The translations under genes were made by a program, and so were the position numbers. Below, one piece after another: positions 23,535 through 36,022 of a DNA stretch of 38,775 nucleotides (the first letter of the stretch is position 1; the number at the start of each line of letters is the position of its first letter). The DNA is from a virus: IMG/VR virus record IMGVR_UViG_3300032278_000037, positions 1-38,775 of that record; one strand, given 5' to 3'. The notes under the pieces were generated by a model. The model worked only from the letters and a program-made list of their open reading frames with translations. It made no database searches and had not been told where the DNA came from.

Positions 23535-23750
23535 TTAAGCGGCTTGGCCGCTGCCAAAAACAGACGGACAAAGCTCGGCAGCTTTGAATTTCCCTTCTGT
23601 GACTTTTTCGGCTCGTAGAGCTACAGCAGGAGACATTCCATGCTTACCGCGCACCCAGCCAGAAACGGTGGTCTGGTCTACGCCAAGCGCCTCAGCGGCC
23701 TTGGTTTGTGTTTTGAAGTGGTCAACCAGCCGATTGAAAAGCGGGTCCAT
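23535..23750 (-). CDS. Cro-like repressor
   Basis: A 71-residue helix-turn-helix protein with QTKAAEALGVDQTTVSGWVR as the DNA-binding core, the Cro/YdaS type. It is divergent from the CI-like gene, with operators between. It should repress the lysogeny promoter and early transcription during lytic growth. Confidence 0.8.
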   Translation of the reverse strand: MDPLFNRLVDHFKTQTKAAEALGVDQTTVSGWVRGKHGMSPAVALRAEKVTEGKFKAAELCPSVFGSGQAA

Positions 23751-23837: not shown

Positions 23838-24557
23838 ATGGAATTAAAAGATCGCCTTAAGCAGGCAAGAAAGTATCGGAAGATGAGTCAGGCCCGTTTA
23901 TCTGAAGCAGCAGGGCTTGATCAGACGACGATCTCAAACTTAGAAACCGGCAAGGTGCTGTCGACCAGCAAGCTTGTGCAGATCGCTCACGCCTTGCGCG
24001 TGGATGCGCGCTGGCTGGCTACAGGTGAAGGCGCTATGGAAGGCACCAAAGAGAAGCGCGCTGGTTCTGCAGCGCGTGTTGATGATTTGGTATTCCATGA
24101 AACAGAAGTGGTTGATGGCGATGAGCCGCTAGGTGCTGACCAAGTAGAGCTACCGTGTTTCTACGAGGTAGAGTTCGCTGCTGGCGATGGCCGCACCCAG
24201 GTTATGGAAAATCATGGCCACAAGATGCGCTTCTCGCTATCCAAGCTAGCGAAACGCGGGATTTCACCAGAGCACGCCGCGTGTGCCACAGCAAGCGGCA
24301 CTTCCATGATGCCCACGATTGCCGACGGCTCTCCTATTGCGATCGACAAAGGCACCCGCCACATCATCGATGGCAAGATTTATGCGCTCGACCACGGCGG
24401 CATGCTGCGCATTAAGCGCCTATACAAGCTGCCGCTGGGGCGTGTGCGCTTGGTTTCTGACAACTCTGATGAGTACCCCGAAGAAGTGCACGGTCTTATA
24501 GGGCCGGATGCGCCAAAGATTATTGGCCGCGTGTTCTGGTGGGAAGTATTTGATTGA
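23838..24557 (+). CDS. cI: CI-like repressor, XRE-S24
   Basis: A 239-residue lysogeny repressor. Residues 1-60 are an XRE helix-turn-helix (MSQARLSEAAGLDQTTISNL). The C-terminal half is a LexA/S24 autoprotease: serine in GTSMMPT (S156), lysine in RIKRLY (K193) and a likely cleavage site A115-G116. SOS induction through RecA is therefore expected. No Shine-Dalgarno is present at the ATG 23838-23840, which fits a leaderless message. It faces the Cro-like gene across three operators. Confidence 0.93.
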   Translation: MELKDRLKQARKYRKMSQARLSEAAGLDQTTISNLETGKVLSTSKLVQIAHALRVDARWLATGEGAMEGTKEKRAGSAARVDDLVFHETEVVDGDEPLGADQVELPCFYEVEFAAGDGRTQVMENHGHKMRFSLSKLAKRGISPEHAACATASGTSMMPTIADGSPIAIDKGTRHIIDGKIYALDHGGMLRIKRLYKLPLGRVRLVSDNSDEYPEEVHGLIGPDAPKIIGRVFWWEVFD

Positions 24558-24748: not shown

Positions 24749-24773
24749 AACCCGCCTCAATGGCGGGTTTTTT
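24749..24773 (+). terminator. Intrinsic terminator of the repressor operon
   Basis: AACCCGCC, loop TCAAT, GGCGGGTT, then TTTTTT. A strong classical terminator. Confidence 0.88.
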
Positions 24774-24790: not shown

Positions 24791-24833
24791 TATGGTTATT
24801 CCCCTTGACTGTAATTATGGGTTGGCCCATATT
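24791..24833 (+). promoter_or_regulatory. PL-like early promoter with two operators
   Basis: -35 TTGACT (24805-24810), 17-nt spacer, -10 CATATT (24828-24833). Operators lie at 24791-24806 (TATGGTTATTCCCCTT) and 24816-24831 (TATGGGTTGGCCCATA, a perfect palindrome around TTGG). CI binding would shut the plus-strand early operon. Confidence 0.75.
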
Positions 24834-24839
24834 TACAGT

Positions 24840-25069
24840 CACACCGAGCAGCCGGTTAGCTGCCGACGCGATGAAGCCCGAACGTCTGACACATAGGGTG
24901 GAGCCGAGAGCGAATTGGGCACGTTTCCAATAGCTGAGATGCGCCGACAGGCGATGACGTTAAGCCAACCATTTTGCGGACGTTAGCAATATGGTCGAAA
25001 AGCCCATTCGCAAGAGTGGGCCTTCCTTAGTCGATTCATGGTGAGTCGGCTGAGGTTGGGAGAAAAGCA
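24840..25069 (+). ncRNA. Structured leader of the early operon
   Basis: About 230 nt with no convincing gene (one 20-codon reading frame from 24871). Simple hairpins are seen at 24848-24863 (GCAGC/GCTGC), 24914-24931 (ATTGG/CCAAT), 24942-24953 (CGCC-GACA-GGCG), 25002-25021 (GCCCA/TGGGC) and 25029-25051 (9 bp with two G-U pairs). No boxA or N-type site is recognised. A put-like antitermination RNA or a regulatory RNA is possible. Confidence 0.4.
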
Positions 25070-25192
25070 ATGTTAGACAGCACTGACAAAGTAGTAATCG
25101 ACAGCTTCTTGGCTGAGAACTGGGCAGAGTTTGAGGCTCATTGTGAGCAACATGGCGTTGACGCTGACGAGATTTCAGAAAAGCTGAATTGA
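25070..25192 (+). CDS. Small acidic early protein (40 aa)
   Basis: It starts MLDSTDKVVIDSFLAENWAE and ends DADEISEKLN. TGGGAGAAAAGCA precedes the start, a good ribosome binding site. First gene of the early operon, where N sits in lambda, but acidic rather than arginine-rich, so not an N protein. Confidence 0.55.
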   Translation: MLDSTDKVVIDSFLAENWAEFEAHCEQHGVDADEISEKLN

Positions 25193-25200
25193 TTCGACCA

Positions 25201-25299
25201 GCCCGTTCACTGAGCGGGCATCGGGATAGAGAGCGCCGTGTCGGGTTTCGGCTGCGGACAATACGGCTCACGGGCTGCGGTACGTTCTCTATCCCGATG
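25201..25299 (+). ncRNA. Intergenic structured element 1
   Basis: A GCCCG/CGGGC hairpin (25201-25219) leads into a long stem. CATCGGGATAGAGA (25219-25232) pairs with its perfect complement at 25286-25299, and the stem extends by a G-U and two more pairs to about 17 bp. The 47-nt interior can form CCGTG/CACGG pairs. It shares arm sequence with the element at 25752-25896. Confidence 0.5.
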
Positions 25300-25325
25300 T
25301 TTGATCACGATCACAGGAGAGCGGT

Positions 25326-25508
25326 ATGAGCATCACAGTTTCTAAATCGGGAGCCCGCGAGGGCTTTGATCACTGCCGATTCAAGGCATCCAATGGGCAC
25401 CTGAGCGGGTTTGGGAAAGCAGAGCAAGCGGCTATTGACGCCTTGAAAGAGCGCATCGGCCGACTGGGCTGGAAAGGCGACCATGATTTCACGGTTAAAC
25501 CAGGCTAG
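25326..25508 (+). CDS. Small hypothetical early protein
   Basis: A 60-residue protein (KASNGHLSGFGKAEQAAIDAL) preceded by AGGAGAGCGGT. No family recognised. Confidence 0.55.
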   Translation: MSITVSKSGAREGFDHCRFKASNGHLSGFGKAEQAAIDALKERIGRLGWKGDHDFTVKPG

Positions 25509-25531
25509 CGGCTAATCAACAGGAGGTGGGT

Positions 25532-25741
25532 ATGGCAGCAGCAGATTATTACCTTTGCGATAAATGCAGCAGAAAAGCGTTTTACGACGCAAACCTGAAT
25601 TACGACTTCGATAGAGGCACAGCAAAAGACGGCAGCTTCAAGCTTGATTATGTGGGTGATATGGCAGTGCTGTGCGATGACTGCGCAGAAGGCTACGAAG
25701 TGGTCATTCAGCCCAAGAGCAAGCCGAGTTCCGCTGCGTAG
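25532..25741 (+). CDS. Small zinc-ribbon-like early protein
   Basis: A 69-residue protein with CDKCSRK near the N-terminus and LCDDCAEGY near the C-terminus, two CxxC knuckles. The ATG at 25532 follows AGGAGG. Function unknown. Confidence 0.55.
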   Translation: MAAADYYLCDKCSRKAFYDANLNYDFDRGTAKDGSFKLDYVGDMAVLCDDCAEGYEVVIQPKSKPSSAA

Positions 25742-25751
25742 TGCGGGGAAT

Positions 25752-25896
25752 AGCGCCGCCCTTGGCGCTGAGAATACCAAGGGCCATCGGGATGGAGTAT
25801 CCAAAACATGCAGGCGGTTAGCACTGCCATAAGCAGACCATAAAGGAGAGGGTAGCGCCCTAATTGCTGGTGTGGTTGCCAGCCTCCATCCCGATG
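25752..25896 (+). ncRNA. Intergenic structured element 2
   Basis: CATCGGGATGGAG (25785-25797) has its perfect complement at 25884-25896, a 13-bp closing stem around 86 nt. The interior has an AGGG/CCCT hairpin and a GCTGG/CCAGC hairpin. Upstream, two hairpins compete: AGCGCC/GGCGCT (25752-25769) and GCCCTTGG/CCAAGGGC (25758-25784). Related to element 1 by the shared hairpin-then-CATCGGGAT layout. Confidence 0.55.
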
Positions 25897-25933
25897 CTAA
25901 TACCGGCATCGTCCGGCGCATCACACTGGCATT

Positions 25934-25958
25934 GCCCGGCACCCCGTCGGGCTTTTTT
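25934..25958 (+). terminator. Intrinsic terminator
   Basis: GCCCGGC, loop ACCCC, GTCGGGC (one G-U pair), then six T. It ends the first gene block of the early operon. Confidence 0.8.
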
Positions 25959-26001
25959 ACCCCAGTTGTAAAGCAATCCTTTACACCTCGATGGAGCGCC
26001 T

Positions 26002-26208
26002 ATGTACACCGACAAGAAAGGCCACGTTTACGAAAGCGACACTGATCTAGACAGCGCAATCTTGTGGTTAGAGCAAGATGCGGCTTATTTGCGCGCTCAG
26101 ATTGAGAAGTACAACGACCGCGCGGTTAAGCAAGCAGTGGCCGATAACGCTAAGCACAGCGCTGAGTATGCCGACCACCTGCGCAGCCTGCGCTCAACCG
26201 TCAAGTAA
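26002..26208 (+). CDS. Small helical early protein
   Basis: A 68-residue, helical, charged protein (LDSAILWLEQDAAYLRAQIE) likely forming a coiled coil. Not recognised. Confidence 0.5.
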   Translation: MYTDKKGHVYESDTDLDSAILWLEQDAAYLRAQIEKYNDRAVKQAVADNAKHSAEYADHLRSLRSTVK

Positions 26209-26214
26209 TCCTTA

Positions 26215-26274
26215 CCAGTTGGAATAGCGCTGCATCGACGTTATTCCCGCGCTGCTTGGCTCCCCTTCCACTGG
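26215..26274 (+). other. Intergenic inverted repeat
   Basis: CCAGT-T-GGAA (26215-26224) can pair with TTCC-ACTGG (26266-26274) around about 41 nt. It is a third long-range stem in consecutive gaps but does not share the CATCGGGAT arm. Confidence 0.35.
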
Positions 26275-26330
26275 CACTGCGAGGGGCGCAGATACAGCAG
26301 GCGGCGCGCCTAATTCTATGAGAGGTGTTT

Positions 26331-26906
26331 ATGAAAATAATCGCAATGGTAATGATGAATGGGCGGTGGGCGTATGTTTTCGATAAGCGGCCAGTTTTTA
26401 TTCATCGCGAACAAGTTATCGATGGTAAGCGTTTCATGGTTGGAGTATGCGGGCCTTTCCGTACCTTTCTGCAGTATCAAAAATCTGGCCCTAATTTTAA
26501 GGCGTTCGCTGGTCGAGAAATGACCGTACGCATGGCTAACGGGGAAGACCGGAAACTAAGAGACGACTGGTGGGATTGCGCAGACCCTGAATCAAAAACA
26601 GTGAGCATTGCCTACAACAGCATTGATCAGCTTAAAGAGTGCTACGTGTTTTATGGCGGCTACGTTGATGCGGAAGCGCTGCAGAAATATGTAGATGAAT
26701 ACGAAACCCGGATTGATAGCGACAACATTTGGAAGCATGCCGACGGCGGCTATCGCTACCGATACCGAGAGTTTGACGACCTAATCAATATGCCCCGCAG
26801 GCTATCCCGCGAGCTAAACGAAAATCTAAAGCTGCATCGAGATAAGCAGGCGCTCATAAAAGAAGTAAAGCGCCTCTCGGCTTTGGTTAAGGAGCCTGCC
26901 GTATGA
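26331..26906 (+). CDS. Hypothetical early protein
   Basis: A 191-residue protein (ATG at 26331 after GAGAGGTG). It contains WAYVFDKRPVFIHREQVIDG and ends in a helical, possibly coiled-coil segment (ELNENLKLHRDKQALIKEVK). Base composition is a little lower in GC than its neighbours. No family recognised. Confidence 0.5.
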   Translation: MKIIAMVMMNGRWAYVFDKRPVFIHREQVIDGKRFMVGVCGPFRTFLQYQKSGPNFKAFAGREMTVRMANGEDRKLRDDWWDCADPESKTVSIAYNSIDQLKECYVFYGGYVDAEALQKYVDEYETRIDSDNIWKHADGGYRYRYREFDDLINMPRRLSRELNENLKLHRDKQALIKEVKRLSALVKEPAV

Positions 26907-27007
26907 CTACACGGTACCTACTCCGCGAACAGCGCGGAAACATCATTACGCCGAGACCTGATAAAGGTCTTTTTTTTGGGCCTGCGTTTAGCGAAAGCAG
27001 CGGCTAA
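26903..27007 (+). CDS. Possible 34-aa ORF over a terminator
   Basis: ATGA overlap with the preceding stop suggests translation, but the reading frame runs through a strong intrinsic terminator. It may be an attenuation leader or may not be a gene. Confidence 0.3.
   Translation: MTTRYLLREQRGNIITPRPDKGLFFGPAFSESSG
26954..26977 (+). terminator. Intrinsic terminator
   Basis: AGACCT, loop GATAA, AGGTCT, then seven T. Confidence 0.82.
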
Positions 27008-27049
27008 GCGCCTTGGCTACCCGCCCCAGTTAATCAATAAGGTGACGCG

Positions 27050-27298
27050 ATGAAATGGAATAAAGCGAGCGAATCAACGCCTAACCAGGGCGAGCGCGTA
27101 CTGCTGGCGATCGCTTACGAAGAGTGCCCGGTAGTTGGTTACTGGGGCGAAGGTGAATACGAAGCCTGCACCGTAAATATGGATGTTGACTGCTGTGCAT
27201 TCTGTTACGGCGGCATGGTTGATCGAGCTTTTAAAAGCAGTGACGTGACCCACTGGATGCAAATACCGGAGGTTCCCAATGAACAAGAAAACGCTTAG
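27050..27298 (+). CDS. DUF551-like protein
   Basis: An 82-residue protein. MKWNKASESTPNQGERVLLAI, VVGYWGEGEYEA and the ending HWMQIPEVP match the DUF551 layout (W..P...G..VL...W..IP), common in phage early operons. Function unknown. Confidence 0.6.
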   Translation: MKWNKASESTPNQGERVLLAIAYEECPVVGYWGEGEYEACTVNMDVDCCAFCYGGMVDRAFKSSDVTHWMQIPEVPNEQENA

Positions 27299-27512
27299 CG
27301 CAATCGCGCTGATGTTTTTGGGCCTGAGCATGGTGCTAGCGGCCAATCTTGGCGCGGCTGACAAAGAGAGCCTGCACCGGACGTATTGCGCTGAGGTAGC
27401 CGTCTGGGCTGCTGAGGAAGCGCGAGGCGTTGAGCCATTGGACCGTGTTGGTCACCCCGATTATCGCGGCAACGCTGCCGAGATTTGCCCTGGTCTACGT
27501 CCTGCTGATTAA
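27279..27512 (+). CDS. Small exported or membrane protein
   Basis: A 77-residue protein with an N-terminal signal or anchor (KKTLSAIALMFLGLSMVLAA) and a mature part with two cysteines (C31 region and ICPG). It overlaps the previous gene by 20 bp and has GGAGG upstream. Confidence 0.55.
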   Translation: MNKKTLSAIALMFLGLSMVLAANLGAADKESLHRTYCAEVAVWAAEEARGVEPLDRVGHPDYRGNAAEICPGLRPAD

Positions 27513-27522
27513 GGAGAACCAC

Positions 27523-27777
27523 ATGAACATGGCTTATGCAGTACCCGACAAAACCGCCGTGCGGTATCCGCAGTTCTCGCCAGAAGCCGACAAAACACCC
27601 ACCGATTGCATCGAGGAAGGCGAGCGAGCCGCCTGTGATTCGCTGATCCGCTGGGCACAGCAGCCCGAAAACGAGCACTGGCTGTGCGACATCTTCTTTG
27701 AGCGCAACGCCACGTCGCGGCGGGATGCGGCGATTGCTGAGTGGGATAAGCAGGTTCGCAAGGGGGAGTGGTCGTGA
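27523..27777 (+). CDS. Small hypothetical early protein
   Basis: An 84-residue protein (start at 27523 after AAGGAGAACCAC). It contains ACDSLIRWAQQPENEHWLCD. Not recognised. Confidence 0.5.
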   Translation: MNMAYAVPDKTAVRYPQFSPEADKTPTDCIEEGERAACDSLIRWAQQPENEHWLCDIFFERNATSRRDAAIAEWDKQVRKGEWS

Positions 27778-28022
27778 GCGATTGGAGATCCACTGGCCGA
27801 GCAGGCTGGGATGAAGAAACTGGCGACGCCGTCTACCACGTTACTAAGGGCAGCAAGAGCTTGAACAAGGGCGACCACGACGAGCTAGAGGCGCTGCTGG
27901 CGAATGCTGGCGAAGTACGCGATGCGCTTAGCAATATCGTTGGCTTAGCCAAGCTAGGCGCGGCACCGCTGCACCAATACGCAGCCGCGATAAAGCACGC
28001 TGAGCAGGTGTTGAGCAAATAA
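27774..28022 (+). CDS. Small hypothetical early protein
   Basis: An 82-residue protein. The GTG at 27774 overlaps the previous stop as GTGA. The core is KGDHDELEALLANAGEVRDA. Two GTGs further upstream are possible starts. Not recognised. Confidence 0.45.
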   Translation: MSDWRSTGRAGWDEETGDAVYHVTKGSKSLNKGDHDELEALLANAGEVRDALSNIVGLAKLGAAPLHQYAAAIKHAEQVLSK

Positions 28023-28023
28023 A

Positions 28024-28057
28024 AAGCCCGCTTACCTGGGCAAACAGGTAGCGGGCC
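28024..28057 (-). terminator. Terminator pointing against the operon
   Basis: In minus sense GCCCGC-TACCTG, loop, CAGGTAAGCGGGC (one bulge), then TTTTTATTT. The stem is strong in either direction, but the U-tract exists only for minus-strand transcripts. No minus-strand gene lies nearby. Confidence 0.6.
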
Positions 28058-28093
28058 GGATCGACGTCTGAAGAAGATCATCAAGGAGTTTAT

Positions 28094-28957
28094 ATGAGCA
28101 ATGCAGTAGCAGCAACACAATGGGCTGAGCAATACCCCATGCTGGCCCAGCGTGGCATCGACGAATCAACGTGGAACGCCCTTTGCTCCACGCTGTACCC
28201 AGGCGCCCGCACTGACTCGATCATCATGGCGATTGATTACTGCCGCGCCCGCCAGCTCGACATTATGTTGAAGCCGGTTCACTTGGTGCCCATGCAGGTC
28301 AAAGACGCCCAAAGCGGCAAGAAGGATTGGCGCGACGTGCCGATGCCGGGCATTGGCCTTTACCGCATCCAGGCGGATCGCTCCGGCAACTACGCCGGTG
28401 CCGACGAGCCGGAGTTCGGCCCCACCGTTGAGCGAGAGTTTCAGGGGCAGGACTTCAACAAGAACCCCATCACGGTGAAGGTGGCTTACCCCGAGTGGTG
28501 CAAGTACACCGTCTACAAGATCGTGTCGGGCATGCGCGTTGCCTACACCTCAAAAGAGTATTGGATTGAGAACTACGCCACGGCAGGAGCTTCTTCCGAA
28601 GCACCTAACGCGATGTGGAAGAAGCGGCCCTTTGGGCAACTAGCCAAGTGTGCAGAAGCCCAAGCGCTGCGCAAGGCATGGCCTGAGATTGGCTCGGAGC
28701 CAACCGCCGAAGAAATGGAAGGTAAGCATTTCGCCCATGCCGAGAAAGACATTACCCCGCAAGCCCAGCCTCAACCCCAGGCGCTACCGCACTACCCGGC
28801 AGAGTCTTTTGAAAGCAACTTCCCGAAGTGGCAAGGCCTGATCGAGGCGGGCAAGAAAACGCCAGAGCAGATCATCTCGATGGTCAGCAGCAAGGCTGAG
28901 CTAACCGAAGAGCAGAAAGCCGCAATCCGCAATGTGGCGAGCGAGGAGGCAGCATGA
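28094..28957 (+). CDS. bet: Phage annealase, Bet/RecT-type
   Basis: A 287-residue single-strand annealing recombinase. Core motifs include LKPVHLVPMQVKDAQSGKKD, GLYRIQADRSGNYAG and GQLAKCAEAQALRKAWPE. It pairs with the exonuclease two genes downstream as a Red-like double-strand break repair system. A glutamine/proline-rich linker follows the core at about 225-240. AAGGAGTTTAT precedes the start. Its stop overlaps the HNH gene start as ATGA. Confidence 0.88.
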   Translation: MSNAVAATQWAEQYPMLAQRGIDESTWNALCSTLYPGARTDSIIMAIDYCRARQLDIMLKPVHLVPMQVKDAQSGKKDWRDVPMPGIGLYRIQADRSGNYAGADEPEFGPTVEREFQGQDFNKNPITVKVAYPEWCKYTVYKIVSGMRVAYTSKEYWIENYATAGASSEAPNAMWKKRPFGQLAKCAEAQALRKAWPEIGSEPTAEEMEGKHFAHAEKDITPQAQPQPQALPHYPAESFESNFPKWQGLIEAGKKTPEQIISMVSSKAELTEEQKAAIRNVASEEAA

Positions 28958-29523
28958 GTAAAGCCAGCCCTCCTTTGATAGAGGTATTAGATGCCGCTGT
29001 TTTTCTGGATGCAGAAAAAGGCCTCCTCTACTGGAAAGAGCGGGAAGCGTCAGCTTTTTCTAGCGGCAGGCATTCAGCTAAGCAAGAAGCTGCTAGATGG
29101 AACTGTCGCCATGCTGGAAAGCCTGCTTTCAATAGCATTTCCAGCAGCGGTTATTTTCATGGCCCGTTTTTAGGCAAATGGCTAAAAGCTCATCGGGTGG
29201 TTTTTGCTTTGTATTACGGCAGATGGCCGGAGCTTTGGCTGGATCATATAAATCACGTCAGAACTGACAACCGCCCGCAAAATTTGCGTGAAGTTGATGA
29301 AAACGGGAATGCCAAAAACGCATCAATCAGATCGGACAACACTAGCGGGCACCCAGGCATAACCTTTGAAAAAAGAAGCGGAAAGTTTGTATCTCGAATA
29401 TCTCATAAAGGGAAAAGGATTTTTTTAGGCAGAAGCGATAGCTACATAGAAGCGCTGCATTTAAGGCTAAGCGCTGAAGCTCGCATGGGTTACCACCAGA
29501 ATCACGGAGGCACTTCGCCATGA
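28954..29523 (+). CDS. HNH homing endonuclease with AP2-like domain
   Basis: A 189-residue free-standing HNH endonuclease. LKAHRVVFALYYGRWPELWL is followed by DHINHVRTDNRPQNL, the HNH_3 metal site, then an AP2-like DNA-binding stretch near 128-170 (NTSGHPGITFEKRSGKFVSR). It is wedged between bet and exo with ATGA overlaps on both sides. GC content is visibly lower than in neighbours, suggesting recent arrival. Expected role is its own spread by homing, though a host benefit is possible. Confidence 0.85.
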   Translation: MSKASPPLIEVLDAAVFLDAEKGLLYWKEREASAFSSGRHSAKQEAARWNCRHAGKPAFNSISSSGYFHGPFLGKWLKAHRVVFALYYGRWPELWLDHINHVRTDNRPQNLREVDENGNAKNASIRSDNTSGHPGITFEKRSGKFVSRISHKGKRIFLGRSDSYIEALHLRLSAEARMGYHQNHGGTSP

Positions 29524-31166
29524 AAGTTATTGAAAACATGATTCAAGGTACGGAAGAGTGGCGCTTCTTGCGCGCTCAACGCTTTACAGCAAGCGAAGCC
29601 GCTGCCGTCTTCGGGCAGCACAAGTACATGAGCCGAAATGATCTTTTAAAACTCAAGCATACGGGTGTTCAGCCGGAGGTTAGTCAAGCGCAGCAACGAA
29701 TATTTGACGCTGGGCACAAGGCTGAAGCAGAGGCTCGAGTCATCGCTGAAGAAATCATCGGAAGTGAGCTATACCCATGCACGGTAGAGGATGATAGCCA
29801 GACATATCTAGCGTCAATGGATGGCCTGGAAATCATGGGAGAAGTTGGATTCGAGCATAAATTGGCTTCCGTATCGCTGATCCAGCAAGTTGAGGCCAAA
29901 GACCTAGAAGATCATTACAAGTGGCAAATGGATCATCAGATGATGGTTTCGGGCGCAGAGCGAATACTATTTGTCGCTTCTGATGGCACTCGCGACCGGT
30001 TTGCTCACATGTGGTACGAGCGAGACGAAGATAGGATAAAGCAACTAATCGCAGGCTGGGCGCAATTCAAGGCCGATCTGGAAGCCTATCAGCCGCAGGA
30101 GAAAACGGTCGCGCCGCAAGGCGAAGCGCCGGACAAGCTGCCCGCGCTCAGCATTCAGATGACGGGTGGCGTGCAGGCGTCGAACTTGCCGTACTTCAAA
30201 GCCAAAGCGCTGGCGATGATCGACAGCATCAAGACGGAGCTGGTCACCGACAAGGACTTTGCCGACGCCGAGAGCACCGTCAAATTCCTGCAGAAAGGCG
30301 AGAAGCAGCTGGAGGAAAGCAAGCAGCGCGCCCTTGAGCAAACCGCCAGCATTGCGGAGCTGTTCGATACCATCGATGAGCTGCGCGAAACGATGCGGCA
30401 AAAGCGCTTGTACCTGAACAAGCTGGTGAAAGCCGAGAAGGAAAACCGGCGCATCGAGATTCAGCGCAATGCGGCTGCAGCGTTTGATGCCTTTCTTGCC
30501 AAGCTGGAGTGCCCAATCGTGCCCGCGCACAGCCTGGATATTGTAGGCGCGATGAAGGGCAAAAAGACGATTAGCACCTTGCAAGCCGCCGCCGATGACG
30601 AAGTAGCCCGCGCCAAAGTCGAATGCCAGCAGCTAGCAAACGAGATCAATGGCAACAAGGCGCTACTAGATGCCGAGCAAGGCGAGTATGCCTTCCTGTT
30701 CAGCGATTGGCGCGACCTGATCCAGAAACAGCGCGACGACCTGCAGGCGGTGATTACGTCACGCATCGCACAGCACAAAGCCGCCGAGCAAGCCAAGCTA
30801 AACACCGAGCGCGAACGCATCCGCCAGGAGGAAGCGGCCAAGGCGCAGCGTGAAGCCGCCGAGGCAGAAGCCAAGCGCCAAGCCGAGGAAGCCGAGAAGC
30901 GCAAGCCAGAGCCAGAGCCGCAGCCAGAACCGGAACCTATGCCCGCCGCTGCCGAGCATAAGCCTCTCGATACCAGCCGCCTACATGCCGCTGCCGATTC
31001 ATTCCAGCGCGGCAGCCAGGTGAAAGCGCCGGAGCAAGTCACTATCTCGCGCAAGGAATACGACCGATTGCTCGCCGCCCAGGCCAAGCTAGACGCCCTG
31101 GAGGCCGCAGGCGTGGATAATTGGTCTGGATACAGCGATGCAATGGCCGAGCTAGAAGCGGCTTAA
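29520..31166 (+). CDS. YqaJ/lambda-type exonuclease with coiled-coil extension
   Basis: A 548-residue fusion. Residues 1-190 are a YqaJ/lambda exonuclease domain: SEAAAVFG, GHKAEAEAR, D101 in ASMDGLE and the ExK pair in GFEHK (E112, K114). From about 200 the protein is DUF1351-like, with long coiled coils, a charged A/E/K/Q/R stretch (440-475), a PEPEP linker and a basic C-terminus. It resects 5' ends for the Bet annealase. GC rises sharply near 30060, at the domain junction. The start overlaps the HNH stop as ATGA. Confidence 0.85.
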   Translation: MKVIENMIQGTEEWRFLRAQRFTASEAAAVFGQHKYMSRNDLLKLKHTGVQPEVSQAQQRIFDAGHKAEAEARVIAEEIIGSELYPCTVEDDSQTYLASMDGLEIMGEVGFEHKLASVSLIQQVEAKDLEDHYKWQMDHQMMVSGAERILFVASDGTRDRFAHMWYERDEDRIKQLIAGWAQFKADLEAYQPQEKTVAPQGEAPDKLPALSIQMTGGVQASNLPYFKAKALAMIDSIKTELVTDKDFADAESTVKFLQKGEKQLEESKQRALEQTASIAELFDTIDELRETMRQKRLYLNKLVKAEKENRRIEIQRNAAAAFDAFLAKLECPIVPAHSLDIVGAMKGKKTISTLQAAADDEVARAKVECQQLANEINGNKALLDAEQGEYAFLFSDWRDLIQKQRDDLQAVITSRIAQHKAAEQAKLNTERERIRQEEAAKAQREAAEAEAKRQAEEAEKRKPEPEPQPEPEPMPAAAEHKPLDTSRLHAAADSFQRGSQVKAPEQVTISRKEYDRLLAAQAKLDALEAAGVDNWSGYSDAMAELEAA

Positions 31167-31174
31167 CAACCACT

Positions 31175-31198
31175 AGGCCCTGCGGGGCCTTTTCTTTT
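31175..31198 (+). terminator. Intrinsic terminator after exonuclease
   Basis: AGGCCC-TGCG-GGGCCT followed by TTTCTTTT, just ahead of the next ribosome binding site. Confidence 0.8.
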
Positions 31199-31207
31199 GG
31201 AGGGCTT

Positions 31208-31588
31208 ATGGCTACGAAACCTCCCTGGACACTAGCTGATTACGCTTACCTTAAGCGCCACTACCCAACTAGCACACCCATTGACGACATAGCCGCCTTC
31301 TTGAAAAGGCCTCGTGAGCAGGTTTGCGTACGCGCCAGGGCGCTCGGCCTGGTCAGGCCCCGTCACTGCACTGAGCTAGCGGTGAGGAACTTTGAGCAGC
31401 AAAAGGGTAAGCCGCTGGTTGAGGTGGCAAAGCATTACATGGCCAGACGTTTATCACGAACAGAGCTAGCCGCTGACATAGGCATTTACTACGGTACGCT
31501 CAAGCGCTTGCTGCCAGCAGAGCTATGGCAGTCGTGGCCACATCAAACGGTTGGCAGGCAGCTAGCCGCCGAACAACGCAGAGCCTAG
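31208..31588 (+). CDS. Putative DNA-binding protein, SANT/GcrA-like start
   Basis: A 126-residue basic protein. PPWTLADYAYLKRHYPTSTP is followed by IDDIAAFLKRPREQVCVRAR, which looks like a Myb/SANT-type start, and the C-terminal half has a second helix-turn-helix (LSRTELAADIGIYYGTLKRL). Terminators flank it on both sides, so it may be a separately expressed cassette. Confidence 0.6.
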   Translation: MATKPPWTLADYAYLKRHYPTSTPIDDIAAFLKRPREQVCVRARALGLVRPRHCTELAVRNFEQQKGKPLVEVAKHYMARRLSRTELAADIGIYYGTLKRLLPAELWQSWPHQTVGRQLAAEQRRA

Positions 31589-31606
31589 CCCCGAAAGGGG
31601 CTTTTT
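31587..31606 (+). terminator. Intrinsic terminator with GNRA loop
   Basis: AGCCCC-GAAA-GGGGCT followed by TTTT. It overlaps the stop of the preceding gene. Confidence 0.83.
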
Positions 31607-31623
31607 ACTATCTGGAGATCATT

Positions 31624-31803
31624 ATGCAGTCACTATTCGGAATCATCTTTTTTATCGGTATCGCGCTAGCCACTTTTGGCGCTTATATCCAGCACTTCGT
31701 TACAGCCATTAATGAAGAAATGTGGGTGCTGCTAGTGCTGGGCGCTGTGATATTTCCGGTAGGCGTGCTGCACGGCTGGCTGGTGTGGTTCGGTGTGCTG
31801 TGA
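31624..31803 (+). CDS. Small two-helix membrane protein
   Basis: A 59-residue protein. MQSLFGIIFFIGIALATFGA and WVLLVLGAVIFPVGVLHGWL give two transmembrane helices. It overlaps the next GTG start as GTGA. Superinfection exclusion is a possible role, but not shown. Confidence 0.6.
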   Translation: MQSLFGIIFFIGIALATFGAYIQHFVTAINEEMWVLLVLGAVIFPVGVLHGWLVWFGVL

Positions 31804-32003
31804 GCCAGATAGCCCGCGCACCCACCGGCCACCGCTGCGGCGAATGCCATCAAAAGGCCGTGCTATCTGACGCCCAGGTTAGAGCAATGCGCCACGACCG
31901 AGAGCGCCACGGCATGAGCTATCGGCGCTTAGCGTTGAAGTACGGCTGCGGCGTGAGTGCGGCAAGAGACATTACAAACTACGTGACGCGGTATAGCGCA
32001 TAA
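31800..32003 (+). CDS. Small HTH/zinc-knuckle-like protein
   Basis: A 67-residue protein with CGECHQKAVLSDAQVRAMRH and SYRRLALKYGCGVSAARDIT (helix-turn-helix-like). The GTG start overlaps the preceding gene. No family firmly recognised. Confidence 0.5.
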   Translation: MSQIARAPTGHRCGECHQKAVLSDAQVRAMRHDRERHGMSYRRLALKYGCGVSAARDITNYVTRYSA

Positions 32004-32012
32004 GGAGGCTGA

Positions 32013-32789
32013 ATGAGGCTATCGAAAAAACAGTCACAGCTTCAAAATCAAGTGATGGAGCTTGTGCACTCAGACCGAAGGCTTAGCGAGAATGAGCGAT
32101 ATTTCATCCTCGAAAACTACCAAGAATCAGCGGGCGCCCTTAACAGTTTAAGCGGCGCCTTTTTTACGCCTGAGGGATTGGCCCGCGACTTTGCGATAGA
32201 GGTCAGCGATGGCGTATCGATTATTGATCTTTGCGCTGGGATAGGCCGCCTGGGCTTTGCTTTAGAGCAGAAAGCGACGCGCTTGGTCTGCGTCGAGTAT
32301 TGCGAGGCTTACATTGAGGTTGGCAAGCGAGTGCTGCCGGATGCGGAATGGATACAAGGCGACGTGTTCGACAAGGAGCTGTATCGCGGGCTGGGCTTCT
32401 TTGATTGGTCAGTCTCGAATCCGCCGTTTGGGAAAATCAAGACAGGCAATTACGAAGGAAATTACCGCGGCGGTCTATTCGAGTACAGAGTGATCGAAAT
32501 GGGCTCGCGAATATCCAGCTTCGGCGCCTTTATCATTCCTCAAGAGTCCGCATCTTTTCGCTACTCGGGTGAGCGCTGCTATCGCGAAGAGATCAATGAC
32601 CGGTGCCGAACATTCATGAAGCAAACCGGCATCACTCTTAGCAATAACTGCGGCATCGACACCACCGTTTATCAAGCCGAGTGGCATGGCGTTAGCCCAA
32701 AGGTCGAGATCGTCACCTGCGAATTCATAGAGAAGCCTAGCAGCGAACAGCAGCTAGACATTTTCGCTGATAGCGAAGAGGCAGCATGA
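32013..32789 (+). CDS. Phage DNA methyltransferase, N6-adenine type
   Basis: A 258-residue SAM-dependent methyltransferase. SAM-binding motif I is DLCAGIGRLG (72-81), an acidic residue follows in VCVEYCEAY, and the catalytic NPPF is at 136-139. It lacks a partner nuclease nearby, so it is an orphan, probably protecting phage DNA from host restriction or changing regulation. The target site cannot be read from sequence. GGAGGCT precedes the start. Confidence 0.8.
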   Translation: MRLSKKQSQLQNQVMELVHSDRRLSENERYFILENYQESAGALNSLSGAFFTPEGLARDFAIEVSDGVSIIDLCAGIGRLGFALEQKATRLVCVEYCEAYIEVGKRVLPDAEWIQGDVFDKELYRGLGFFDWSVSNPPFGKIKTGNYEGNYRGGLFEYRVIEMGSRISSFGAFIIPQESASFRYSGERCYREEINDRCRTFMKQTGITLSNNCGIDTTVYQAEWHGVSPKVEIVTCEFIEKPSSEQQLDIFADSEEAA

Positions 32790-32987
32790 ATGAAACCCAC
32801 AACCAAACGCTGCCCAAAGTGCGGCAGTGAGCGCCTACGGCTGTTTCGCTCAATCAATCTGAAACAGTGCGACGAGTGCTTGCATGAATTCGACTGGCAC
32901 TTAGCGCCTGGGCAGAAACCGCTAGTCGGCCCAAGCCGCGACCGCTACATCATTACTGGAGATAACCATGCTGATACCCGTACATAA
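32790..32987 (+). CDS. Small zinc-ribbon protein
   Basis: A 65-residue protein with CPKCGSERL and QCDECLHEF, a zinc ribbon. Start at 32790 directly after the methyltransferase stop. Function unknown. Confidence 0.6.
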   Translation: MKPTTKRCPKCGSERLRLFRSINLKQCDECLHEFDWHLAPGQKPLVGPSRDRYIITGDNHADTRT

Positions 32988-33177
32988 CGGCACCGCTGCC
33001 GAACGCGAAGCAGTGATTGACGACTTTCTTGATCACGTTTTATCGCGCTGGGAAGATTGCGAGCATGAAAAAGAGGCCGCGCTAGCAGAAAACGACGCAC
33101 TGGCGATTGAGAATGCCAAGCTGCGGCTTGAGGTAGCCGAGCAGGCTAAGCAGTTGGCTAGCATGAGGGCGGCGTGA
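32968..33177 (+). CDS. Small coiled-coil protein
   Basis: A 69-residue protein. ALAENDALAIENAKLRLEVA forms a clear leucine/heptad coiled coil. It overlaps the zinc-ribbon gene's end by 20 bp and has GGAG upstream. Confidence 0.55.
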   Translation: MLIPVHNGTAAEREAVIDDFLDHVLSRWEDCEHEKEAALAENDALAIENAKLRLEVAEQAKQLASMRAA

Positions 33178-33428
33178 TGGGCATTAAGCAGAGAACAATC
33201 AGTGAGGTTACTTGCGATATTTGCGGTAAAGAGTGCGGTGAGAGCGACGGGGTTATTAGGGCGCGAGTAAATAGCGGCGATGGTCGTGACGTTGGGCCTG
33301 CTTATATCACTGCCGAACTGAGATTCAGCCAGCCGTATGGTGTTACCAACGGGCTTATATGCCCAGCGTGTAAGCTGAAATACCTTGAAACCTATGTTGC
33401 TAAGCTGCGTGAGCAATTAGAGGGCTGA
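33177..33428 (+). CDS. Small zinc-binding hypothetical protein
   Basis: An 83-residue protein with CDICGKECGE and ICPACKLKYLE. The ATG at 33177 or a GTG 3 bp earlier could start it. Function unknown. Confidence 0.5.
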   Translation: MGIKQRTISEVTCDICGKECGESDGVIRARVNSGDGRDVGPAYITAELRFSQPYGVTNGLICPACKLKYLETYVAKLREQLEG

Positions 33429-33433
33429 TCAAA

Positions 33434-33865
33434 ATGACACCAATGGAGCGAATAGAGGGCGAACTGAACGAGGCACATAAGCGCATTGCCGAGCTTGAGT
33501 ATTTGCTGGCACGCCAGGCTAAAGCCGCCCAACAGGGTATGGATGCGGTCAAGTCGGTGGCAAGTTACGAATTGAAACAAGCCAAGCGGCTGCGTGCTGA
33601 ATGTAGTCCGGAGGCGTTGGAAAGCGAGCGGGCGGCTAATGCCTTGCTAACTGAGCGCGTTGCTGAGCTTGAGGGGCGAGAACAGGTGCTGGCGGCGCAT
33701 GTCGAGAGCATTCGATACGTATTGGTTGATGCAAAACGGTGTGTAGCGGTAGTCGCACATCCGTCAATTTACCGCGCTCCACAATACCAGCCGCTTGCCA
33801 AGCGTGTGATGCAACGAATTGAGAGCATAGGGAAGCGGTGCGAATTTGGGAGTACAAGTTTGTGA
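33434..33865 (+). CDS. Coiled-coil hypothetical protein
   Basis: A 143-residue protein with a long N-terminal coiled coil (ELNEAHKRIAELEYLLARQ) and a second at about 65-90, then a small C-terminal part. Not recognised. Confidence 0.5.
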   Translation: MTPMERIEGELNEAHKRIAELEYLLARQAKAAQQGMDAVKSVASYELKQAKRLRAECSPEALESERAANALLTERVAELEGREQVLAAHVESIRYVLVDAKRCVAVVAHPSIYRAPQYQPLAKRVMQRIESIGKRCEFGSTSL

Positions 33866-33878
33866 CTGAGGCCCAGCA

Positions 33879-34064
33879 ATGACCCATCAGCCCAAGGGCG
33901 GGCAGTGCACAGCATGCCGCCACGCCCTATCCGATTGCAACCACCTACCGTTTAGCCAGATGCCGCCAATGAGCAAGCACAAGGGCGTCGTCATCGTTCG
34001 GTGCACTGAATATGCTCGATCAACTACCCAACGCACGCCGCATCGCCGCGCTGGCAGTGCGTAG
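33879..34064 (+). CDS. Small cysteine-containing hypothetical protein
   Basis: A 61-residue protein with CTACRHALSDCNH and a basic end. A zinc knuckle is likely. Function unknown. Confidence 0.4.
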   Translation: MTHQPKGGQCTACRHALSDCNHLPFSQMPPMSKHKGVVIVRCTEYARSTTQRTPHRRAGSA

Positions 34065-34120
34065 GCGCATACCCGATACGCCGCCGTGGCGGTTATCGAC
34101 ACGACTGTTTAGAGACTATG

Positions 34121-34143
34121 GCCGCGATTAGCGGCTTCTTTTT
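34121..34143 (+). terminator. Intrinsic terminator
   Basis: GCCGC-GATTA-GCGGC followed by TTCTTTTT, 5 nt before GGAGG of the next gene. Confidence 0.78.
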
Positions 34144-34157
34144 GCCTGGAGGTTTTT

Positions 34158-34334
34158 ATGGGACACGTAAGAGGCCCGTTTCTTGAATACGAGTGCACCA
34201 AGTGCGGCTGCACGATCAAGGAAAACGCGCCGCGAAACCAGGAGCGTTTAGTTGATCGAATTGCCGACGCTAACGCCAACCCAGACGATAGAGTTTGCGC
34301 CTCTTGCTGGGATCCTGGTGATAACAATCTTTAA
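34158..34334 (+). CDS. Small zinc-binding protein (58 aa)
   Basis: MGHVRGPFLEYECTKCGCTI at the start and CASCWDPG near the end give a four-cysteine zinc site. GGAGG lies upstream. Function unknown. Confidence 0.6.
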   Translation: MGHVRGPFLEYECTKCGCTIKENAPRNQERLVDRIADANANPDDRVCASCWDPGDNNL

Positions 34335-34345
34335 CGAGGTGAATC

Positions 34346-34573
34346 ATGACCAGCACAGCATTTGATGAACAGTTTGCAGTATGCACGCCGGAGGAAGAAG
34401 AGGCGTTTCGGGCTATCGAGGCACGGCAGCGGGAAGCGGAGATTATGAGGCTAAGCGAGCGAGAGCGGTTTATGGCGTGGTATGCATCGGAGTTTGATGG
34501 CAAGGAGCGTAGCGCTAGGCCAATCGCTTGGGCGGCGTGGCAGGAAGCTTTGTTGAAGCCAGGTGACGCATGA
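34346..34573 (+). CDS. Small hypothetical early protein
   Basis: A 75-residue, acidic, helical protein (FRAIEARQREAEIMRLSERE) with a tryptophan-rich end. Flanked downstream by a terminator. Similar small proteins occur near phage integration genes. Confidence 0.5.
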   Translation: MTSTAFDEQFAVCTPEEEEAFRAIEARQREAEIMRLSERERFMAWYASEFDGKERSARPIAWAAWQEALLKPGDA

Positions 34574-34597
34574 AGCCGCTAACAAGCAACGATTAAC

Positions 34598-34623
34598 AGC
34601 CGCCCAAGAGGCGGCTTTCTTTT
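34598..34623 (+). terminator. Intrinsic terminator before integration genes
   Basis: AGCCGCC-CAAGA-GGCGGCT followed by TTCTTTT. Confidence 0.83.
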
Positions 34624-34638
34624 GCCTGGGAGAATGCC

Positions 34639-34971
34639 ATGGGCGAAATGCTAATGAGCCGCGATGAAGCGGCTAAAGAATTGTCGTGCCACCCCGCCAC
34701 CATTTCCAAGTGGGTGAATAGCGGCACGCTGCCAGGGCTAAAGATCGGCGGCAAAACCTACGTCAACAAGCAAGCACTCAAAGCGATGATTGCCGGAGAT
34801 GCAGCGGTCAGCCACACTACCGATGCACCCGGCGCGATAACGGGAGGTAAGCCATGCCGTATAAGCGCCCAGACTCACCGTTCTGGTGGGTCTACCTATC
34901 CCCGCCGGGAGGCGGCGAGCCAATTAGACGCTCTACTCGGACGACCGACAAGCAAGCGGCTGAAGCGCTAG
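34639..34971 (+). CDS. Excisionase/AlpA-like HTH protein
   Basis: A 110-residue protein. MSRDEAAKELSCHPATISKW, then VNSGTLPGLKIGGKTYVNKQ, is the MerR/excisionase-type winged helix that bends att DNA. The C-terminal 39 residues overlap the integrase start by 118 bp in another frame. Its tail is basic. It lies directly upstream of the integrase, as expected of xis. Confidence 0.7.
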   Translation: MGEMLMSRDEAAKELSCHPATISKWVNSGTLPGLKIGGKTYVNKQALKAMIAGDAAVSHTTDAPGAITGGKPCRISAQTHRSGGSTYPRREAASQLDALLGRPTSKRLKR

Positions 34972-35948
34972 AGGGGAAATGGAAGGCGCAACTTTACCGC
35001 CAGTCCTATTGGGACGAAGCCCCTGAACGCAGCTTTGCCGAAGTCGCCACCGAGTACCTGCTGGCCAGTCAGGACAAGCGCTCATTGGCCGATATCAAGA
35101 TGCGCACCGGCAAACTCTACGACTTCTTTGGTGCCGACAAAGTAATGGGCAAGCTGGAAGGCGCAGACGTTCGCGCCTTTATTGCCTTTCGGCAAAGTGA
35201 AGGCGTCGGGCCTGCCACCATAAACCGAGAGCTGGCGATACTCGCGGCCATGATCACCCACGCGGTCACGCATTTAGAGTGGCCGCTACCCAACCCTGTG
35301 AAGGGCCGGATGCTGAAAGAGCCGCCTGGGCGCGTGCGCTGGATTACCCGCAAGGAAGCGGACACGCTGATCGAGAAAGCCAAAACCACCCGCGAAGGCG
35401 AGCGCTTGGCCGACTTCATCGAGCTAGCCCTGCACACCGGCGCACGCAAAGGCGAGCTATTAAAGCTTGAATGGCGGCGCGTGAATTGGGAACACGCACT
35501 GATAACCCTGGAGCCAGAAGATAGCAAAGCTGGTAAGCGCAGAACGATACCGCTCAACGAGTCGGCCGTGGCCGCGCTCAAACGGCGGCACCGATACGCG
35601 CAAACCTACTGCCCTTCTTGCCCTTGGGTATTCTGCAAGCGTGACGGCAGCCGATACGTCTACCCTAACCCGGTATTCAAAAAGGCGTGCGCGCTGGCGT
35701 GCATCAAAGACTTCACCATTCACGACTTGCGGCATACCTGCGCAAGCTGGCTGGTGTCGGAAGGCGTGCCGCTGGCAGATGTGAAGGAAGTGTTGGGGCA
35801 TTCCACCATCAACATGACCGAGCGTTATGCGCACCTAGCACCCCACCGCGCACGGGACGCCGTGGCCAAGCTACAATCACGTTCTCATCACGTTAAAGAA
35901 CCGGTTGAGAATATCGAGGCATTGCTAGGGAGGAAAAAGAAAGCCTAG
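34854..35948 (+). CDS. int: Tyrosine integrase
   Basis: A 364-residue phage integrase. The N-terminus MPYKRPDSPFWWVYLSPPG is the usual arm-binding start. The catalytic set is R198 (HTGARKGE), K225, H290-R293 (HDLRHT), H316 (LGHSTI) and Y325 (TERYAHL). GGAGGTAAGCC precedes the ATG at 34854. It lies 42 bp from the tRNA-Ser, the attachment site. Probably integrates by tRNA 3'-end recombination. Confidence 0.95.
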   Translation: MPYKRPDSPFWWVYLSPPGGGEPIRRSTRTTDKQAAEALEGKWKAQLYRQSYWDEAPERSFAEVATEYLLASQDKRSLADIKMRTGKLYDFFGADKVMGKLEGADVRAFIAFRQSEGVGPATINRELAILAAMITHAVTHLEWPLPNPVKGRMLKEPPGRVRWITRKEADTLIEKAKTTREGERLADFIELALHTGARKGELLKLEWRRVNWEHALITLEPEDSKAGKRRTIPLNESAVAALKRRHRYAQTYCPSCPWVFCKRDGSRYVYPNPVFKKACALACIKDFTIHDLRHTCASWLVSEGVPLADVKEVLGHSTINMTERYAHLAPHRARDAVAKLQSRSHHVKEPVENIEALLGRKKKA

Positions 35949-35990
35949 AAACGAAAAAAGCACAGTAAAAACGAGGCTTTAGAATCGAGG

Positions 35991-36022
35991 TGGCGGAGGG
36001 ACAGGGATTCGAACCCTGGATA
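35991..36022. other. Probable phage attachment site (attL/attR core)
   Basis: The integrase lies 42 bp away and the tRNA 3' end faces the prophage, so the crossover is expected in the T-arm or acceptor stem. The other copy is not in the window, so the exact core cannot be fixed. Confidence 0.5.

Follow-up and report, generated by a model that had tools for sequence, protein, structure and literature searches.

How does transcription that starts at an early phage promoter reach the integrase gene at the far end of an operon in which intrinsic terminators lie in its path? The window, by which we mean the whole stretch of DNA analyzed, is a 38,775-base IMG/VR virus record and corresponds to a Halomonas-type prophage. 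A CI-type repressor gene (23838-24557, plus strand) and a Cro-like gene (23535-23750, minus strand) diverge from a shared operator region, and the PR operon, with Cro and the replication genes, runs leftward on the minus strand. On the 3' side of cI follow a short ORF, a terminator, and a second promoter, PL, whose operators are of the same kind as in the cI/cro region (operator inverted repeat at 24806-24841). The PL operon runs rightward through small genes and those for a RecT-type annealing protein, an HNH endonuclease, a RecE-like exonuclease, a methyltransferase, Xis, and integrase, and ends beside tRNA-Ser. An earlier sequence-only reading had placed the integrase at the operon end, and we did find xis and integrase as distal genes of the PL operon. 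For the C-terminus of the RecE-like exonuclease (29520-31166), the matching phage families carry the annotation host RecBCD nuclease inhibitor. Our analysis suggests, with a probability of about 0.7, that the leader following PL is a cis-acting processive antitermination RNA, which would be assisted by boxA and Nus factors in one type of leader (type A) and be free of boxA in the window (type B).

Table 1. Features of the PL region and operon in the window (all coordinates are window positions).
Feature	Position	Strand	Remark
Intrinsic terminator	24749..24769	+	separates the cI transcript from PL
Early promoter PL	24805..24833	+	TTGACT-17-CATATT; overlaps CI-type operators
Type B leader RNA core	24842..24965	+	R2 covariance-model match, 145 bits; pairs counted on five sequences
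Type B P1	24848-24852/24859-24863	+	
Type B P2	24876-24879/24896-24899	+	
Type B P3	24909-24918/24927-24935	+	
Type B P4	24942-24945/24950-24953	+	
Type B pseudoknot	24882-24886 with 24956-24960	+	
Leader 3' hairpins	24966..25069	+	up to first RBS; partly common to type A phages L003 and L006
First small ORF	25070..25192	+	40 aa, not arginine-rich; phage family without assigned function
Intergenic hairpin and CATCGG...CCGATG stem, copy 1	25219..25299	+	association with leader inferred from position alone
Intergenic hairpin and CATCGG...CCGATG stem, copy 2	25785..25896	+	just 5' of the terminator at 25934
Intrinsic terminator	25934..25952	+	strong; identical copy in L006
Intrinsic terminator	26953..26971	+	weaker; 3 GC pairs, long T run
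Intrinsic terminator	31175..31190	+	strong; 3' of RecE-like gene
Intrinsic terminator	31587..31602	+	strong
Intrinsic terminator	34120..34136	+	strong
Intrinsic terminator	34598..34616	+	strong; just 5' of xis
Excisionase and integrase	34639..35948	+	34639-34971 and 34854-35948; distal PL-operon genes

The six intrinsic terminators that the sequence-only reading had listed in the plus-strand operon are all predicted there, five of them strong and the one at 26953 weaker. Terminator counts are predictions throughout, obtained by applying a single strict criterion to all loci; by this criterion the window has 5, compared with 0.2 expected in mononucleotide shuffles. In 13 loci, the PL operons 3' of the leader contained 24 strong terminators in 60.1 kb and the PR operons 1 in 71.3 kb (binomial p ~1e-7), and the antisense strands of the same PL and PR operons contained 0 and 2. 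Three loci with a related repressor and neither type of leader (L011, L014, and L017, with PL read from the sequence) had 0 terminators in 30 kb (10 kb each) versus 23 in 60 kb for six loci with a leader (p ~9e-5); both p values are guides only, given the small number of surveyed loci and the relatedness of some. The three leaderless controls are GC-richer (62-66%), yet L216 (65%) and L016 (62%) have a leader and terminators.

Another element is repeated between genes in the PL operon only: a GC-rich hairpin followed by a long stem, CATCG...CGATG, of 63-141 nt with a variable interior. It is present in the window and in L002, L003, L004, L006, L007, L008, L013, and L016, often close to the first terminator, with 0.05 copies expected per shuffled window. 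We rejected a tRNA-like nature of the intergenic stems of L003 and L007, for which there were only loose ARAGORN calls and no tRNA at the Rfam gathering score.

A structured leader of about 230 nt with several hairpins right after PL had also been described, and its fold is indeed more stable than expected: the predicted energy of 24838-25070 is -86.4 kcal/mol, compared with -72.1 ± 4.4 kcal/mol in shuffles (z = -3.24, 0 of 200). The 3' hairpins (24966-25069) supply much of this stability, and conservation falls on the core at 24842-24965, the type B RNA. It is known from five sequences, in the window, L016, L024, L216, and, in diverged form, L023; L216 and L023 were left out when the type B covariance model (R2) was built. 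With this model, each phage had a single copy, located only after PL. Between the window and the Halomonas litopenaei prophage L016, the core is 84.6% identical over 123 nt and the repressors are only ~55% identical. Among the type B phages the first genes differ and the core is kept; the repressor operators vary too.

Pairing in P1, P3, P4, and a helix formed by ACGUC and GACGU is supported across the five sequences, with 99.1% of cells paired. Two-sided changes occur in 7 pairs and 13 cells, compared with 4.3 cells in shuffles (0 of 500) and no more than 1 in slid controls. Each of the five sequences also forms P2, with varying letters (GCCC/GGGU, GCCCC/GGGGU, CCGCG/CGCGG, and CCGCC/GGCGG). 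Because the P2 loop contains ACGUC, the distal ACGUC/GACGU helix makes a pseudoknot; its pairs hardly vary, so it is supported mainly by conservation. An arrangement in which the distal helix closes a simple multiloop was dropped in favor of the P2-loop pseudoknot, with which all five sequences agree.

The sequence-only reading had suggested searching Rfam and relatives for a conserved fold. The Rfam part gave nothing for the leader (at the gathering score, Rfam 15 returned only tRNA-Ser in the window and no match in ten relatives), and the part concerning relatives yielded the covarying fold of the five prophage sequences. The window leader had no DNA match among 50,697 GenBank phage records, and type B was absent outside Halomonadaceae in 390 genomes drawn from the order. 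Exact-word searches for type B returned L025, which represents the L016 phage again, and otherwise unrelated loci that match by chance. We found no Halomonas phage antitermination RNA in the open literature searched.

Relatives identified via the repressor comprised 7 viral contigs and 11 genome loci (Halomonas, Vreelandella, and Cobetia). In all 7 contigs and 6 of the 11 genome loci (one with one mismatch), the PL leader 3' of cI contains GCTCTTTAACAA, the boxA of rrn operons, and the exact 12-mer does not occur elsewhere in them. In a Halomonadaceae genome, the 16S rRNA is preceded by the same 12 nt. Among ~36 distinct Halomonadaceae prophage leaders of this kind (type A), boxA (GCUCUUUAACAA) is exact in 30 and has a one-base variant in 6. 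The motif GCUCUUUAACA near the transcript 5' end separates the type A relatives from the window, in whose leader the best 12-mer has 4 mismatches; we therefore ruled out a degenerate boxA. A search with the type A covariance model (R1) likewise found no type A RNA in the window.

R1 detected type A in 27 of 275 Halomonadaceae genomes (E below 1e-18 in 20), and the 390 genomes from the order added no further family, only the Halomonadaceae genomes already found. An exact-pattern search found type A in 18 viral contigs, and there was no match in GenBank phages or plasmids. The type A fold also covaries: 96% of cells are paired, and there are 108 two-sided cells, whereas shuffles gave 30 and slid controls no more than 16. 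Two-sided changes were seen in 14 of 21 pairs in an alignment fitted to the model, and in 11 of 21 when 11 sequences had earlier been aligned freely with MAFFT. As for type B, the leader is kept while the upstream operators change from phage to phage. In L006 (7320-7810), an HNH endonuclease-like gene lies between the type A leader and other leader modules common to L006 and the window. Types A and B appear to be two undescribed RNA families, going by the lack of a match in Rfam and GenBank phages.

The two types of leader are connected at their 5' ends. The 5' hairpin of type A leaders (AGGCCCUCACAGGCC), which in type A runs into boxA, is joined directly to the B core in L216. Paired 5' ends of B and A leaders agree at 20 of 23 positions for L024/L018 and 15 of 17 for the window/L005, which base shuffles reach in at most 1 of 2000 trials. 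The leaders of L004, L051, and L060 retain the hairpin and boxA and have a different downstream domain. From these joins, matching ends, and domain swaps, we conclude that the leader is modular. Judged from the sequences compared, type B occupies the place of boxA and domain A in other phages. Since the same spot holds the host rRNA antitermination signal in most relatives, the leader RNA probably lets polymerase pass terminators. That type B is an independent class of antiterminator RNA, pseudoknotted, without a phage protein or boxA, and exchanged with a boxA-bearing leader, is a tentative proposal to which we give slightly less than even odds. In the leaderless PL operons (L011 8448, L014 7980, and L017 10031), a short 5' UTR is followed by an apparent LuxR-type HTH gene, and in L024 a similar LuxR-type HTH-like gene sits between the promoter and the B leader.

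If each block beyond a terminator had its own promoter, the leader could do another job, for example protection of the mRNA 5' end. Internal promoters were what the sequence-only reading had set against its own proposal. We found no plus-strand promoter-like site of at least 9/12 at 24840-36000, from PL to the operon end, in a scan that other-sigma or far-from-consensus promoters would escape. Separate promoters would also leave unexplained why terminator abundance is limited to leader-bearing operons and why boxA lies at the same place in relatives, and we regard this explanation as unlikely. Slightly less likely still is that an unrecognised trans-acting phage antitermination protein binds the leader, as N does at a lambda nut site. 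Lambda-type nut sites do hold boxA, and lambda needs N to pass intrinsic terminators (PMC5725501). Moreover, some type A phages encode an arginine-rich 53-aa ORF, MAKPRHTKR..., in the PL operon (L003 5354-5512, L004 7944-8099, and L007 8146-8301). However, this ORF, which has no PHROG match, is missing from the window, and in L004 and L007 the first terminator precedes it. No protein family encoded 3' of the leader is common to all leader-bearing phages: the widest, found in 9 of 18 loci, is not arginine-rich, and the arginine-rich one, that of the MAKP ORF, is found in 8 of 18. A 15-nt boxB hairpin is also smaller and simpler than the A and B folds. For the window, the claim that no arginine-rich N-like protein is visible was borne out. 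There was none among the PHROG or Pfam matches of the PL operon, where a short divergent one could be missed, and among the top candidates of an arginine-rich scan the sole small ORF with an RBS-like sequence has a TTG start and overlaps the methyltransferase gene (32314-32493). A lambda-type N was thus rejected, as both approaches were negative and the MAKP ORF is not general.

The long structured 5' UTR, with its 14-bp hairpin 5' of the first RBS, might instead suggest translational or attenuation-type control of the first gene or genes rather than an operon-wide device. We consider this very improbable: the core is kept though the first genes differ among phages with a B leader, no terminator lies within the leader or at its end, and no Rfam family matches at the gathering score. 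With no N-like gene and no consensus internal promoters, and with put, N, and boxA as precedents, the leader RNA most likely modifies the polymerase.

For the antitermination RNA that we favor, we propose the following mechanism. When CI is gone, PL would fire and the nascent RNA of 24842-24965 would fold into its hairpins and pseudoknot. The folded leader RNA would join the transcribing RNA polymerase and stay attached, and the modified polymerase would read through the intrinsic terminators and reach recT/recE, the methyltransferase gene, xis, and int. Both the binding to polymerase and the read-through are probable, as far as sequence comparison can indicate. In type A, the rrn boxA and the conserved fold would load NusB/S10 and other Nus factors; as the boxA complex without N is mainly known to act against Rho, type A would need something more for intrinsic terminators. 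In type B, the boxA part would be replaced by the boxA-free core. Because the window has no boxA, recruitment would have to be direct, as for HK022 put, or via other host factors.

Use of boxA outside rRNA operons and without N is known for long CRISPR-array transcripts, which it keeps going (Stringer et al. 2020, as reported in PMC12691694 and PMC7862264). These leaders likely target Rho, not intrinsic terminators. We know of no conserved structured partner domain described for them. An exact boxA just 5' of a CRISPR-like array (repeat GTGAGCTGCCGCACACGCAGCTCAGAAA) in a Halomonadaceae genome (L226, about 258-450) fits the published CRISPR boxA leaders. In addition, at least 120 viral contigs (L085-L202) have a sigma70-like promoter with an exact rrn boxA at a distance of 20-50 nt downstream, compared with 13 for the reversed boxA. 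In several groups of these contigs boxA is preceded by a GC-rich hairpin and the sequence downstream is conserved; others have a lambda-type boxB. This suggests that boxA leaders may be widespread in phage early transcripts.

In the type A leader, as in the host rRNA leader, a GC-rich hairpin precedes boxA, and boxA is the same in both. We saw no counterpart of the conserved structured domain of type A in the rRNA leader, and type B lacks any boxA. Antitermination of the rrn type depends on NusB/NusE. Without N, the complex of boxA and Nus factors is mainly known for counteracting Rho rather than intrinsic terminators (PMC5725501). With lambda N/nut, the PL operon shares an early position, a CI-controlled promoter, terminators to be passed, and, in type A only, boxA. 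It differs in having no N-like protein and no boxB-sized hairpin right after boxA; the short hairpin of type A precedes boxA.

HK022 put RNA defeats both intrinsic and Rho-dependent terminators on its own by binding RNA polymerase; it is about 70 nt long, has two stem-loops, and follows both PL and PR (PMC9378689). A trait of put is read-through that needs no protein and involves the beta' zinc-binding domain. Like put, type B stands at the beginning of an early phage transcript, has neither boxA nor an N protein, and by analogy would let polymerase pass intrinsic terminators. The sequence-only reading had proposed RNA-based antitermination as with put. The RNA-based part is well supported by comparison, through the conserved covarying RNA after PL, its exchange with a boxA version, and the confinement of strong terminators to leader-bearing operons; the likeness to put stands as an analogy. 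R1 and R2 had no significant match in HK022 26.0-34.5 kb (8.5 kb that include PR, with putL not placed), and our promoter scan of HK022 did not locate PL. Type B has ~124 nt, hairpins plus a pseudoknot, and a copy only after PL. As type B differs from the published put RNA in length and arrangement and has no copy after PR, we do not claim kinship with put. The leader would hence belong to a known kind, the cis-acting antiterminator RNAs, though it may turn out to form a separate class. Detailed knowledge of RNA-only phage antitermination comes from HK022 put, and in the present phages two apparently undescribed RNA families occupy one regulatory position in one phage group, one with the host rRNA boxA and one without. 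The pair makes it testable how a leader RNA takes over from protein N, whether a boxA complex combined with an RNA domain can overcome intrinsic terminators, and which part of the type B fold stands in for boxA.
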